From Gammaproteobacteria bacterium (GTDB lineage: Bacteria; Pseudomonadota; Gammaproteobacteria; Steroidobacterales; Steroidobacteraceae): a stretch of 64,000 bases of DNA. This document shows, piece after piece, positions 20,248 to 25,474 of the stretch. The translations under genes were made by a program, and so were the position numbers. The notes under the pieces are model-generated. The model was not told where the DNA came from, did not search any database, and was given only the letters and a program-made list of their open reading frames with translations. Location of the stretch: positions 106,186 to 170,185 of the forward strand of contig VGVG01000002.1 in NCBI GenBank assembly GCA_016874055.1, in the 5' to 3' direction. Within the stretch, counting starts at the first letter, position 1. The number at the start of each line of letters is the position of its first letter.

Positions 20248-20285
20248 GCCTGCTCAGTGTAGCGAGTTCCCGTTATAATCGACTG

Positions 20286-21401
20286 GTGAATCCGATCGTC
20301 TATGCCATCCCAGTATTCATGGCCTCGATTCTTATTGAGGCATGGATCGCACATCGCCGCGGCATCGCCACCTATAACATTCCCGATGCCATCACGAGCC
20401 TCAACTTCGGCGTCCTGAGTCAGGTGTCGGCAGTATTCGTTCGGGTGTTGACGTTCGGCGTCTATGTCTGGACTTTTGAGAATCTCCGTATCGGTGTGCT
20501 GCCCGCCGACTCGATCTGGGTTTGGATAGCGTCGCTGATTACCTACGACTTCATATACTACTGGGTCCACCGTTGCGGCCATGAGATCAACCTCATGTGG
20601 TCAGCTCACCAAGTCCATCACTCCTCGGAATACTTCAATCTCTCGACGGCTTTGCGCCAAACGTCGACGGGTGCATTCGCAGCCTTCCCGTTTTACCTAC
20701 CAATGGCCGTACTCGGGGTTCCGCCTATCGTATTTGGCACCGTCGCGCTCGCCGATCTGCTCTATCAGTATTGGGTCCATACCGAACTCGTCCGCAAACT
20801 CGGCTGGGTTGATCGGATCCTCGTCACGCCCTCCAATCATCGAGTGCACCACGGCCAGAACGGCTACTGCATCGACCGCAATTACGGCGGCATTTTCATT
20901 ATTTGGGATCGCATCTTCGGTACGTTTGCGGAAGAGCGAGACGATGAGCCGGTGGTATACGGCATTCGTAAGCAGCTCGCCAGTTATAACGCGGTGTGGG
21001 GAAATCTCAACGTTTACGTCGACGTGTTTCGTAAATCTTTGCGCGCGGGCTCCATATCCTCTTCCATTCGAACGTGGTTCGATCCACCGGGCGGACGCGG
21101 CGTCGTGCCAGCCCACCTCGATCCTTACAGCGTTAAAAAATTTGGAACCGAAACATCTCGAACTATGAAACGGTATGCCATAGTGCAGTACACCCTGCTT
21201 GCCGTCATGGCGACTTATTTTTTGGCTATCACCCCAACTCTTACGCTGCAAGGTCGAATCATTTGGGCGCTTTTGATCATGCTGTCAACAACGAGTCTTG
21301 GATGGTTGCTTGAGGGATGTCGTTTTGCCCGCCTATTCGAGAGTGCACGACTACTCACGCAAAGCGTAGCCCTCATCGTTTACGTGCTGATCAGCCCCTG
21401 A
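20286..21401 (+). CDS. Sterol desaturase / fatty acid hydroxylase family protein
   Basis: Integral-membrane di-iron oxygenase. The histidine clusters HRCGHE, SAHQVHHSSEYFN and NHRVHHGQN sit between membrane segments, as in the fatty acid hydroxylase superfamily. There are about four hydrophobic spans before or around the His boxes and three more at the C-terminus (YTLLAVMATYFLAI, LIMLSTTSLGWLLEG). The start codon is GTG. At 371 residues it resembles the longer bacterial members related to alkylglycerol mono-oxygenase rather than short carotene hydroxylases. Substrate unknown. The sulfatase trio begins 157 bp downstream on the same strand. Confidence 0.88.
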   Translation: MNPIVYAIPVFMASILIEAWIAHRRGIATYNIPDAITSLNFGVLSQVSAVFVRVLTFGVYVWTFENLRIGVLPADSIWVWIASLITYDFIYYWVHRCGHEINLMWSAHQVHHSSEYFNLSTALRQTSTGAFAAFPFYLPMAVLGVPPIVFGTVALADLLYQYWVHTELVRKLGWVDRILVTPSNHRVHHGQNGYCIDRNYGGIFIIWDRIFGTFAEERDDEPVVYGIRKQLASYNAVWGNLNVYVDVFRKSLRAGSISSSIRTWFDPPGGRGVVPAHLDPYSVKKFGTETSRTMKRYAIVQYTLLAVMATYFLAITPTLTLQGRIIWALLIMLSTTSLGWLLEGCRFARLFESARLLTQSVALIVYVLISP

Positions 21402-21558
21402 TCGTGTTGAGGGAGGATTCCCAGGTTGGCGCGTGCGTCCAGCGCAAGTCAAGTAGGCGAACAACGCGGATCAAAAACTTAGCCGATCGAATCTTTTCGA
21501 AATACCCCGGCCTCGATTGATTCCTCTACTTCCGAATCGGATGAGTTAGTCTCTTCAC

Positions 21559-22641
21559 ATGCTCCGTCGATCTCGCTCGGCATCCGTTGCCTTGGCAGCC
21601 CTCGTGGCGGTACTCGTTCTCAGCTGGATTTTCCGAGGTGAAATCACGGAAAAGTTGATCGTCCGAGTAATTGAACGGTCTGCCGCCCTTCCCGACCCAG
21701 CCGTCGGTCTACCTGATGGTCTTCATGTCGGACTTTGCGGCACCGGCTCTCCTATGACCGATTCTCGCCATAGCGGCCCCTGTACGGCCGTTCTCGCCGG
21801 AAACCGTCTCTTTATCGTCGATGCCGGTCCCGGCAGCGCGTCTGTCTTGAACAGAATGCTGCTCAACCCCGGGCGGATCGACGCCGTGCTGTTGACGCAC
21901 TTTCACGGCGACCACATCGGCGGACTCGGCGACCTCGCTCTGCAGCGATGGATCTCGGCTTCAGCGAAAACGCCTTTGGAGGTCTACGGACCCGCGGGCG
22001 CCGTGGCGGTGGTCGAAGGCATCAAACGCGCGTACTCGAGCGATAACGATTACAGAACCGCTCACCATGGTTCGCTCATTGCTCCGCCCGAGGGGCGCGG
22101 CCTGTCCGCCCGGGAGTTTTCGACTGGAACCGACGGCAGAGCGGTTCTCATCGATACACCGCCACTCAAAATCACTGCCTTCTTAGTTGATCATGGACCG
22201 GTGCAACCGGCCGTGGGTTATCGTTTCGACTACAAAGGTCGCCGCATCGTGATCAGCGGCGACACGCGAGCGAGTACGGCAGTCGAACGCGAAGCTCAAA
22301 ATGTTGATCTATTGATCCACGAGGGGCTTTCGCCGCGACTCGTCGCGCTGATGGAACGCGGTTTCGCCCGCCATGCACGGACCGCGTACGCGCAAGTCAT
22401 GGCGGATATCCGCAATTACCACACGAGTCCCGAGCAGGCGGCCGAGATCGCGCAGCGTGCGGGCGTCAAAATGCTCGTGTTCAATCACATCGTGCCGCCT
22501 TTACCGAGCCGATTCTTGGATGCGCGTTTCCTCGGCGACGCCACATCGCGTTTCGATGGCCCCATCCGCGTCGGCGTCGATGGAGATTGGTTTTTTTTAG
22601 GCGTCGGATCGACCGACGTTGAGATGAGCTCCCGTCCATGA
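21559..22641 (+). CDS. Membrane-anchored or exported metallo-beta-lactamase-fold hydrolase (RNase Z / AtsA-like group)
   Basis: Residues about 8-25 form one hydrophobic segment (VALAALVAVLVLSWIF). The zinc motif THFHGDHIGG places ligands at His114, His116, Asp118 and His119, and later ligands are expected in VISGDTRAS and FNHIVPP. This pattern belongs to the RNase Z-like group, which includes MBL-type arylsulfatases. The export signal argues against a tRNA-processing role. The last four bases overlap the next gene as ATGA, so it is coupled to the DsbA-like and sulfatase genes. An ester hydrolase is the best guess. Confidence 0.85.
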   Translation: MLRRSRSASVALAALVAVLVLSWIFRGEITEKLIVRVIERSAALPDPAVGLPDGLHVGLCGTGSPMTDSRHSGPCTAVLAGNRLFIVDAGPGSASVLNRMLLNPGRIDAVLLTHFHGDHIGGLGDLALQRWISASAKTPLEVYGPAGAVAVVEGIKRAYSSDNDYRTAHHGSLIAPPEGRGLSAREFSTGTDGRAVLIDTPPLKITAFLVDHGPVQPAVGYRFDYKGRRIVISGDTRASTAVEREAQNVDLLIHEGLSPRLVALMERGFARHARTAYAQVMADIRNYHTSPEQAAEIAQRAGVKMLVFNHIVPPLPSRFLDARFLGDATSRFDGPIRVGVDGDWFFLGVGSTDVEMSSRP

Positions 22642-23813
22642 GCAGTCTGCGCGCACAGGTCGGACGTCGGATCGCACGATTCCTGACCAGCGAACGACAG
22701 CGGGATTTGATTCGCTCCCTGCGCTTGCTCGAACGACGAGTGGCTGGTCGTTCGCCAACGGTCCATTACTTCCATCAGTTTGATGATCCCTACAGCAAAC
22801 TTGCTATTTCGCAACTCGAGCGACTGGAGAGTCGTTATGCCATTCGGCTTGAGTGCCACGCCGTGCCTCCGCCCGATCTCGCGGCAGCACCCGAGTCTGC
22901 TGCGCTGCGCGAGTGGTCAAAGCGCGATGCCGCCGCCCTCGCCTCGCGTTTCGGTCTAGAAACCTCGGAAAACAAAGCAGTACTATCCGGGCTCACCGAG
23001 ACGCCGGAGTCGATCGAGCGAGGTGGCGCGCTGCGGAAACGCCTCGGACATTACCTCGGCGCGATGTTTTTTTTTGAGGGTGAGTGGTACTGGGGCATTG
23101 ATCGACTTCATCACCTCGAGTCGCGATTGCGCCAATCGGGCCTCGCAGCAAACGGTGAAGACCCCGGCACCCTAATGCCACCCGATCTGCGGTTTCTGTC
23201 GTTACCGCAGTCGAAAGATCCCACTCGAACGCCGCCAACGATCGAGTTCTTCTGTTCACTGCGTAGCCCGTACACCTGGCTCGCGGTGCCCCGGATACGA
23301 AAACTCGCGGAGCATTATGGCGCGAAGCTCGAACTCAAGTTCGTGCTCCCGATGGTGATGCGCGGTCTGCCGATACCGACTGATAAAAGATTTTACATCC
23401 TCATGGATGCCAAGCGCGAAGCCTCGCGCTTGGGGCTTCCCTTCGGTGATATAGCCGATCCGGTTGGACGCCCGGCAGAGCGAGGTCTCGCCGTCCTGCA
23501 CCACGCCATCCGACGCGGTTGCAAAGAAGAGTATCTGGAGTCGTTTCTGCGCGGCGTGTTCGCAGAAGGTATCGATGCCGGCACTTCGCGAGGACTCGAA
23601 CGAATTGCAGAGAGAGCGGGTCTTGATCGACGAACCGTCGATCTCGCAATTACCGATGAAACGTGGCGCATCGCTGCCGAGCAGCATCGCATCCAACTCC
23701 TATCGACAGGCTTGTGGGGGGTTCCGAGCTTTAGGGTGACGGGTTTGCCCGCCTATTGGGGGCAAGATAGGCTTTGGTGTCTTGAGGATGATCTGATTCG
23801 TCTGGCCACATGA
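22638..23813 (+). CDS. Tandem DsbA/HCCA-isomerase-like thioredoxin-fold protein
   Basis: The 391 residues appear to hold two thioredoxin-fold domains of the DsbA / 2-hydroxychromene-2-carboxylate isomerase (GST-kappa) family. The first starts at about residue 40 (TVHYFHQFDDPYSKLA), the second at about residue 200 (TIEFFCSLRSPYTWLA). Neither has a CxxC. The SPY motif and the closing STGLWGVPSFRV of the second domain are those of the isomerase/GST-kappa branch, so a glutathione-dependent isomerase or transferase is more likely than disulfide exchange. No signal peptide is seen. ATGA overlaps both neighbours. Confidence 0.8.
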   Translation: MSSLRAQVGRRIARFLTSERQRDLIRSLRLLERRVAGRSPTVHYFHQFDDPYSKLAISQLERLESRYAIRLECHAVPPPDLAAAPESAALREWSKRDAAALASRFGLETSENKAVLSGLTETPESIERGGALRKRLGHYLGAMFFFEGEWYWGIDRLHHLESRLRQSGLAANGEDPGTLMPPDLRFLSLPQSKDPTRTPPTIEFFCSLRSPYTWLAVPRIRKLAEHYGAKLELKFVLPMVMRGLPIPTDKRFYILMDAKREASRLGLPFGDIADPVGRPAERGLAVLHHAIRRGCKEEYLESFLRGVFAEGIDAGTSRGLERIAERAGLDRRTVDLAITDETWRIAAEQHRIQLLSTGLWGVPSFRVTGLPAYWGQDRLWCLEDDLIRLAT

Positions 23814-25474
23814 CCCGCATACTCCGCCTCGCCCTACTTGTCGTTGCGATCCTTGCCGCGCTGGTCGCCGTGTTTTTCTTGGCTGGCGGTCGAACCGGGC
23901 TTGCGCTCTGGGTGGCGCGCTACGTGCTGCATGAGGAAAGCGCGCCGTTTCGCGAGGTCATTTGGCAGAAAGGCCCGACTGAACCCGTGGCTCAAAGAAA
24001 GCCTAACGTCATCCTCATCGTCGTCGATGATCTCGGCTACGACGATCTGACCGCGCTCGGCTCGGGCGTCGCGGGTGGACGAGTTCCAACGCCCAACATC
24101 GACAGTCTGGCTCGAGACGGCATCCGATTCGATGTAGCGTATTCCGGAAACGCGACCTGTGCGCCCTCGCGCGCCGCCATCATGACCGGTCGCTACGCGA
24201 CTCGCTTCGGGTTCGAGTTCACGCCGGCGCCTACGGCATTCATGAGGCTGATTTCTTCGGGCATCAATCGCAATCCCGGTGAACCTCCGCCACTTTATTT
24301 TTCTGACCGTGCGTCGGATCAACCACCCGTCGCGGATATGGGTCTGCCAACGAGCGAGATCACCATCGCGAAACTGCTGCAAAAAACGGGCTATCATACC
24401 GTTCAGATCGGCAAGTGGCATCTCGGCGATAGCCCGAGATATCGCGCCTACGCGCACGGCTTCAATGAATCTTTGAGTCTGCAATACGGCGCAGCGATGT
24501 ACCTCCCCGAGGACGATCCGCGTGTCGTCACGGCCGTTGCCGAGCGCGATCTGATCTCAGAATTCATTATTGCCAATGAACCTTGGGGTGTTCGGTTCAA
24601 TGATGGGGAGATCTTCGAGCCCAATCGCTATCTCACCGACTACCTGACCGACGAGGCGGTGCGTGTGGTCGACGCTAATCGCAATCGACCGTTTTTTCTT
24701 TATCTCGCGTACAACGCACCGCATACGCCGCTTCAGGCGACTCGTGCGGACTATGACGCCCTACCTTTCATCGAAGATCGCACGCTGCGGGTTTATGCGG
24801 CGATGCTACGATCACTCGATCGCAATATCGGAAGATTGCTCGACGGGCTTCGCGAACGCGGTCTTGAGCAGGACACGCTCATCCTGTTCACGAGCGACAA
24901 CGGCGCACCTCACTACGCGGGGGTCGGATATCGTAATCAACCCTATCGGGGCTGGAAAGCCACATATTTTGAGGGAGGCATACGAGTGCCCTTCCTGATG
25001 CGCTGGCCCTCTACCCTGCCGGCCGGAAAAATGGTCTCAGGTCCTGCAGCGCACTTCGATATTTTTTCGACCATCGCCGCAGCGGCAGACGCCTCCGTGC
25101 CGCAGGATCGCATCATCGATGGCGTCAACCTGCTCCCCTTTGCTCGCGGCGAAGCGAGGGGGCGACCTCACGGAGCGCTCTTCTGGCGGACGGACGATTA
25201 CCTCACCCTGCGACTTGGCGATTGGAAACTCCAAACGAGTGAGCGCTCCGCGAAAACCTGGCTCTTTGACCTCTCGACGGATCCGCTCGAGCGGATCAAC
25301 CTCGCCACGCGAGACCCCGCAAGAGTGGCCGACATGAAAGCGCGACTCGAAGAATTCAACAAACAGCAATCCGCACCGCTTTGGCAATCACTCGCCGCCA
25401 ATCCAGTGCCGATCGATCGGTCTTCGCTGGAGCCCCCGAAGCGGAACGAGGAGTTTGTCTACTTTTCCAACTGA
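23810..25474 (+). CDS. Sulfatase (formylglycine type, arylsulfatase-like)
   Basis: Hydrolyses a sulfate ester of unknown substrate. Residues about 5-26 are a membrane segment (LALLVVAILAALVAVFFLAG), so it is exported or anchored. The metal-binding NVILIVVDDLGYDD is followed by the signature TCAPSRAAIMTGRY with Cys117 as the residue converted to formylglycine, then IGKWHLGD and FTSDNGAPH. Length 554 suits family S1 sulfatases. It overlaps the DsbA-like gene by four bases. It is convergent with aroD, sharing 16 bp at the 3' ends. No formylglycine-generating enzyme gene is in this window. Confidence 0.93.
   Translation: MTRILRLALLVVAILAALVAVFFLAGGRTGLALWVARYVLHEESAPFREVIWQKGPTEPVAQRKPNVILIVVDDLGYDDLTALGSGVAGGRVPTPNIDSLARDGIRFDVAYSGNATCAPSRAAIMTGRYATRFGFEFTPAPTAFMRLISSGINRNPGEPPPLYFSDRASDQPPVADMGLPTSEITIAKLLQKTGYHTVQIGKWHLGDSPRYRAYAHGFNESLSLQYGAAMYLPEDDPRVVTAVAERDLISEFIIANEPWGVRFNDGEIFEPNRYLTDYLTDEAVRVVDANRNRPFFLYLAYNAPHTPLQATRADYDALPFIEDRTLRVYAAMLRSLDRNIGRLLDGLRERGLEQDTLILFTSDNGAPHYAGVGYRNQPYRGWKATYFEGGIRVPFLMRWPSTLPAGKMVSGPAAHFDIFSTIAAAADASVPQDRIIDGVNLLPFARGEARGRPHGALFWRTDDYLTLRLGDWKLQTSERSAKTWLFDLSTDPLERINLATRDPARVADMKARLEEFNKQQSAPLWQSLAANPVPIDRSSLEPPKRNEEFVYFSN

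Follow-up and report, generated by a model that had tools for sequence, protein, structure and literature searches.

Why would a bacterium encode a membrane-anchored hydrolase, a thioredoxin-fold protein and a sulfatase so tightly that their genes overlap? The question is raised by a small cassette in the window, the 64,000-nucleotide stretch of DNA analysed here (GenBank assembly GCA_016874055.1, contig VGVG01000002.1, positions 106,186 to 170,185), which comes from a gammaproteobacterium of the family Steroidobacteraceae, probably a lake dweller. The genome (G000) is a 1.39 Mb assembly of 29 contigs and is 84% complete; the window lies on its contig C2. The gene set looks like part of an undescribed pathway that removes sulfate from an organic molecule, and a described pathway with this gene set was not found in the open-access literature. 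On the evidence of the sequences, we lean towards reading the operon for the metallo-beta-lactamase (MBL) hydrolase, the tandem thioredoxin-fold protein and the sulfatase as one version of a mosaic set of catabolic genes whose substrate is a small lipophilic organic sulfate.

The cassette contains four open reading frames (ORFs), all on the + strand. Their coordinates and Pfam matches agree with the positions and families assigned in a preliminary description of the window. The three core genes and the motifs of their products are as follows, in window coordinates:

21559..22641, + strand: membrane-anchored MBL-fold hydrolase, 360 amino acids (aa), COG1234/RNase Z-GntH type (from the ORF, Pfam and the nearest structure, an MBL arylsulfatase)
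21898..21915, + strand: HxHxDH metal motif (HFHGDH) of the MBL protein (from the sequence)
22638..23813, + strand: tandem thioredoxin-fold protein, 391 aa, with two halves resembling 2-hydroxychromene-2-carboxylate (HCCA) isomerase and kappa-class glutathione S-transferase (GST) (from the ORF, Pfam, alignment and a model)
22770..22796, + strand: domain 1 motif FHxxxDPYS, with invariant F45, H46, D50, P51, Y52 and S53 (from the alignment)
23253..23276, + strand: domain 2 motif CSLRSPYT (Cys206-Thr213), at the position of the HCCA-isomerase/kappa-GST catalytic loop (from the alignment)
23810..25474, + strand: type I (formylglycine) sulfatase, 554 aa, with an N-terminal membrane anchor (from the ORF, Pfam, alignment and the nearest solved relatives, S1_19)
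24158..24172, + strand: CAPSR sulfatase signature, with Cys117 as the predicted formylglycine (from the alignment)

ATGA overlaps at 22638/22641 and 23810/23813 join the MBL, tandem-protein and sulfatase genes. The overlap of three of the four genes, from which a common pathway had been proposed, thus stands; the fourth gene, for a sterol-desaturase-like protein, lies 157 nt upstream of the MBL gene with no overlap and probably forms a separate transcription unit.

The linkage is conserved well beyond the window, as a common pathway would have it. The genomes compared are mostly metagenome assemblies, with locus genes taken from simple ORF calls and family labels assigned by BLAST thresholds. 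Among 23 other species of the genus, the sulfatase (scored at E below 1e-140) is present in 18 and the tandem protein in the identical 18. In every one of the 16 genus genomes that have both genes on one contig, they lie side by side. Several congeners carry a longer operon, comprising genes for the MBL protein, the tandem protein, the sulfatase (sulfatase 1), a second sulfatase (sulfatase 2), a short-chain dehydrogenase/reductase (SDR) and a GST-type protein. Outside the genus, an alignment of the tandem protein was scanned against 84,980 genomes; 583 relatives were confirmed, and the 80 best loci among them were read. Seventy of these are non-genus loci, many with short flanks; within the flank, sulfatase 1 is found in 17, sulfatase 2 in 18, the MBL protein in 17, subfamily-I haloalkane dehalogenase (HLD-I) in 14 and the formylglycine-generating enzyme (FGE) in seven, alongside GSTs. 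The families of the cassette therefore recur as a mosaic cluster across alpha-, beta- and gammaproteobacteria, and the second sulfatase, GSTs, FGE and haloalkane dehalogenases are partners from other genomes that the preliminary description lacked.

The composition of the individual clusters varies. A compact alphaproteobacterial locus (L228, genome G716) contains genes for a TetR regulator, a GST, FGE, the MBL protein, the membrane protein c29, an HLD, a second HLD-like protein, sulfatase 1 and sulfatase 2. Betaproteobacterial loci such as L052 add TetR regulators, a lipase-like protein, a PF10118 protein and a wax-ester synthase/DGAT, and 16 of the 70 non-genus loci include a beta-propeller-like protein (labelled by eye, with no Pfam match). 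The nearest relative of the cluster GST is StyI. Named plasmid records yielded no tandem protein; the only sulfatase neighbourhood inspected among them, on Novosphingobium pLA3, is unrelated. A metagenome contig titled Klebsiella pneumoniae (CAMAQZ010000021.1, L053) shares the gene set of contig C21 of congener G004, and its label is probably wrong.

The two hydrolases of the operon have different folds and may both cleave sulfate esters, as had been suggested. The sulfatase matches Pfam Sulfatase at 1.1e-56 and, in an alignment that leaves out L066, has the full residue set of the family intact: CAPSR (C-x-P-x-R), DD, GKWH, HTP, SDNG and GWK. Among solved structures it comes closest to the S1_19 carrageenan sulfatases (8e-82 by sequence, E 9.5e-36 by fold, ∼33% identity), with steryl-sulfatase more distant. 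The MBL protein matches Lactamase_B_2 at 7.6e-22, and its best solved relative is 8gyg (5.8e-28), a chain named 'Arysulfatase'; none of the 18 solved sequences matched is an alkylsulfatase structure of the SdsA1 or Pisa1 type. N-terminal hydrophobic segments suggest that both proteins are located in or beyond the inner membrane. C-x-P-x-R is missing from sulfatase 1 of four betaproteobacterial loci (L052, L056, L088 and L125); L052 and L125 read CTVSR instead, with Val where FGE targets carry Pro or Ala, despite an adjoining FGE gene.

The tandem protein was at first expected to have thiol-isomerase chemistry of the DsbA type, and this expectation is not supported. Pfam DSBA matches its second half only (6.9e-19). 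That domain alone has the DsbA-like fold with an SPY loop and a cis-Pro GVPxF motif, and CSxRSPYT, WGVPSF and WGQDRL are invariant in it across 15 aligned sequences; in the same alignment CxxC is absent from the active-site position of both halves. An AlphaFold model (pLDDT 86.9, pTM 0.87) matches HCCA isomerase and kappa GST. With no CxxC and with these model matches, the tandem protein is more likely to be a glutathione-dependent than a disulfide enzyme. No N-terminal hydrophobic segment or signal peptide is seen in it.

The window genome itself encodes an orthologue of sulfatase 2, on another contig (C6:45500-47500; L038 7593-9425), which is 57% identical to the copy within the operon of congener G007 and 28% identical to sulfatase 1. 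It is related to the Pseudomonas aeruginosa arylsulfatase PAS (1hdh, E 4e-112), and its gene is flanked by genes for acyl-CoA dehydrogenase-like proteins, CaiB-type CoA-transferases, an SDR and a TonB-type receptor (labels given by eye from sequence starts). The pathway that we infer from these sequences, in its localisation and order as in its chemistry, would have three stages: (i) periplasmic desulfation by the anchored formylglycine sulfatase, a secreted sulfatase 2 and perhaps the MBL hydrolase, after which the desulfated product would enter the cell, (ii) glutathione-dependent processing by the tandem protein, joined in relatives by one or two GSTs, (iii) breakdown of the carbon chain by the SDR and the acyl-CoA enzymes of the sulfatase-2 locus. 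The substrate would be lipid-like and, where HLD-I is present, the simplest guess is that it contains a carbon-halogen bond.

The association with HLD-I can be followed at several levels. With 442 bits the L052 enzyme exceeds the cut-off of 265, and the solved structures closest to it are haloalkane dehalogenases. Asp129, Trp130, Trp171, Asp257 and His287, which from knowledge of DhlA we take to be the HLD-I catalytic set, do not vary among 16 HLDs of the clusters. Of 399 evenly sampled Pseudomonadota genomes, the window genome among them, 36 have HLD-I, and 14 others than the window genome have sulfatase 1 (scored at E below 1e-200). Across 398 genomes, HLD-I is present in 13 of the 14 with sulfatase 1 and in 23 of the 384 without it (Fisher 3.7e-14, a test that ignores shared ancestry); in five genomes (G629, G647, G665, G716 and G756) no more than 3 kb separates the pair. 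The sulfatase-linked enzymes fall into several groups of the HLD tree, with 5 changes as against about 15.6 for shuffled labels. Those of congeners G014 and G019 sit inside a sulfatase-linked beta/gamma clade and are encoded beside c29, which in betaproteobacterial loci adjoins the sulfatase or the tandem gene. Two HLD-type genes are present in the L116 and L228 clusters (the second of L228 at 233 bits, under the cut-off), and in L290 (G690) an epoxide hydrolase stands beside sulfatase 1 instead of an HLD. When the view is centred on the HLD, clear cluster partners are seen in six of 40 loci and weak ones in one, so that most HLD-I genes are unrelated to the cluster. Within the genus, HLD-I exceeds the cut-off in seven of the 18 cassette-bearing congeners and in none of the five non-carriers; this difference is weak alone, and HLD presence in the genus was rejected as proof of a halogenated substrate.

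What kind of sulfate ester the pathway serves can be weighed from these partners. Many HLDs are without an assigned biological function (PMC3938430), and chlorosulfolipids, first described from freshwater chrysophytes and lately detected in the Eastern Pacific (PMC13413282), carry both sulfate and chlorine. It is conceivable, if on the unlikely side, that the substrate is both sulfated and halogenated, as are these algal lipids, and that the window operon represents a reduced version of a degradation set of Pseudomonadota in which two sulfatases would desulfate, HLD-I and the GSTs or tandem HCCA-like proteins would dechlorinate, and beta-oxidation would take the chain. The catalytically intact HLD-I of the 14 non-genus loci, the co-occurrence and close pairing with sulfatase 1, the doubled HLD-type genes, the epoxide hydrolase and the tree position of the G014 and G019 enzymes all speak for such a substrate. 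Against it, the window genome shows no HLD-I (best match 4e-11, in the 84%-complete assembly), 11 of the 18 cassette-bearing congeners have none above the cut-off, the co-occurrence test takes no account of common descent, and enzymes of the HLD family can be promiscuous. Since its genome shows no HLD-I, the halogen part is conjecture for the window organism. A paper on bacterial chlorosulfolipid degradation was not found in the open-access literature (two contain the terms, but to judge by title and abstract neither deals with the subject), nor was one there that joins HLD, sulfatase, GST and gene cluster.

HCCA isomerase is an enzyme of naphthalene catabolism, and this, together with the likeness of the MBL protein to an arylsulfatase and of sulfatase 2 to PAS, would fit the earlier proposal that steroid or aryl sulfates are scavenged and the freed steroid or phenol then oxidised. 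No ring-cleavage or steroid ring-degradation genes are seen in the clusters, however, and the di-iron oxygenase stands outside the core, which makes this proposal rather improbable. Use of a sulfated polysaccharide, with the sulfatase as a carrageenan or galactan enzyme of the S1_19 type, draws on the best sequence and fold matches; but polysaccharide-degradation genes were not recognised beside the sulfatase in the loci scanned, GST, HLD and SDR are ill-fitting partners and identity to the solved S1_19 enzymes is low, so a polysaccharide-utilisation locus was rejected and this use is judged very unlikely. Sulfatases frequently serve sulfur supply, and a TauE/SafE-type exporter adjoins the operon in three congeners (G001, G007 and G023, the last by homology); yet the identical genus distribution of tandem protein and sulfatase, and their recurrence in three classes, leave little room for the other genes being chance neighbours of sulfate-supplying sulfatases, the least probable account of all. 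The favoured reading, catabolism of a small lipophilic sulfate, has its own difficulties: an MBL gene is missing near the sulfatase in congeners G003, G004, G008 and G021, the nearest solved sulfatases act on a polysaccharide, and many non-genus tandem-protein loci have no sulfatase in reach, from which it follows that the tandem protein has wider uses.

How the sulfatase would acquire its formylglycine is a puzzle of its own. An FGE gene had been noted as absent locally, and a PF03781 search of the 84%-complete window genome likewise found no match anywhere in it; no FGE-family match was found in G014 either. The anaerobic sulfatase-maturating enzyme (anSME, TIGR03942) has no match in any of G000-G022 and was dismissed as the maturase. 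In five congeners the sole PF03781 match is a SUMF1-domain protein of ∼820 aa (L161-L165, at G021:C135, G004:C83, G015:C15, G008:C115 and G022:C3, respectively). Its C-terminal SUMF1 domain (RVIKGSNWRT...) is without the CxxxxC pair that is present in the FGE-like proteins of G001, G007 and L052, and it was discarded as an FGE on this ground. Open frames of about this length with a PF03781 match turn up repeatedly in the family and the order. Disulfide chemistry of the tandem protein was also rejected as a route to formylglycine: CxxC is lacking, and the tandem gene elsewhere adjoins a true FGE. G004, G014, G015 and G021, which are 95-99% complete, have CxPxR sulfatases and neither a cysteine-pair FGE nor anSME; in G015 the sulfatase query finds 18 matches. 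FGE works through a bis-thiolate copper site (PMC12123546), and Escherichia coli forms formylglycine by a third, unidentified system (PMC6189696). Because of this third system, the missing maturase lowers but does not exclude the predicted sulfatase activity in the window organism. The genomes without either known maturase are a natural case of the formylglycine puzzle, and not an unprecedented one.

The remaining gene of the cassette and its promoter-like box are located as follows:

20274..20279, + strand: TATAAT box, 6 nt before the GTG of the sterol-desaturase-like gene (from the sequence; kept in relatives)
20286..21401, + strand: membrane protein of the sterol desaturase / fatty acid hydroxylase family, 371 aa, GTG start (from the ORF and Pfam)

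The protein matches Pfam FA_hydroxylase at 2.5e-30 (106 bits against a cut-off of 31), and the GTG start is conserved in five of the five genus members compared. The box reads TATAAT or TATAGT in the two nearest relatives, G014 and G019; a −35 consensus was not found upstream of the gene. Given the short distance between box and start and the conservation of the box, a leaderless start is possible. The preliminary description counted this di-iron oxygenase as a core member, which the comparison does not bear out: the gene neighbours the cassette in only five of the genus genomes examined (adjacent in G014 and G016), and in G019 and G003 a histidine-kinase/AraC-type two-component pair splits it from the operon. 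Because of this interruption it is treated as a neighbour, probably a transcription unit of its own with the promoter-like box. The intervening pair (L019 13089-16471; L021 1309-5153), a 7TMR-type histidine kinase with an AraC-type response regulator, is a candidate regulator of the cassette. A further element, GGATnnGnTAGTCT (window 21540-21560), lies a few bases ahead of the MBL ATG and is conserved in three species; it is possibly a second promoter that separates the operon from the desaturase-like gene.

The conserved set links sulfatases to glutathione enzymes and haloalkane dehalogenases, and many of its carriers are apparently from lakes, to judge by isolate names only. It is a testable candidate both for the role of HLD-I in nature and for degraders of sulfated, halogenated algal lipids; were the chlorosulfolipid proposal true, it would give HLD-I a natural role and provide the first bacterial route for these compounds. 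The near-complete genomes that have CxPxR sulfatases without FGE or anSME bear on the question of a third maturation system, which to date has been deduced from E. coli.

Compared with known systems, each component has a recognisable counterpart and departs from it. With the S1_19 sulfatases (PsS1_19B, 6prm; iota-carrageenan sulfatase, 6bia) the window sulfatase has in common the CxPxR signature and the catalytic residue set, but it is membrane-anchored and linked to GST, HCCA-type and HLD genes rather than to carrageenan enzymes. Sulfatase 2, the relative of PAS, is encoded outside the window. The MBL protein resembles AtsA-type arylsulfatases such as 8gyg in its HxHxDH motif and closest similarity, and adds an N-terminal membrane anchor; it also resembles RNase Z and GntH-type proteins, falling below every curated cut-off for either. 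The cluster HLDs keep all catalytic residues of HLD-I (4mj3, 5esr, 6f9o), whose gene was not found in the window genome. The tandem protein shares its second-domain fold and the SPY, WGVPSF and WGQDRL motifs with HCCA isomerase (2imd, 3fz5) and kappa-class GST, and differs from them in having two thioredoxin-fold halves in one chain, the first marked by FHxxxDPYS.

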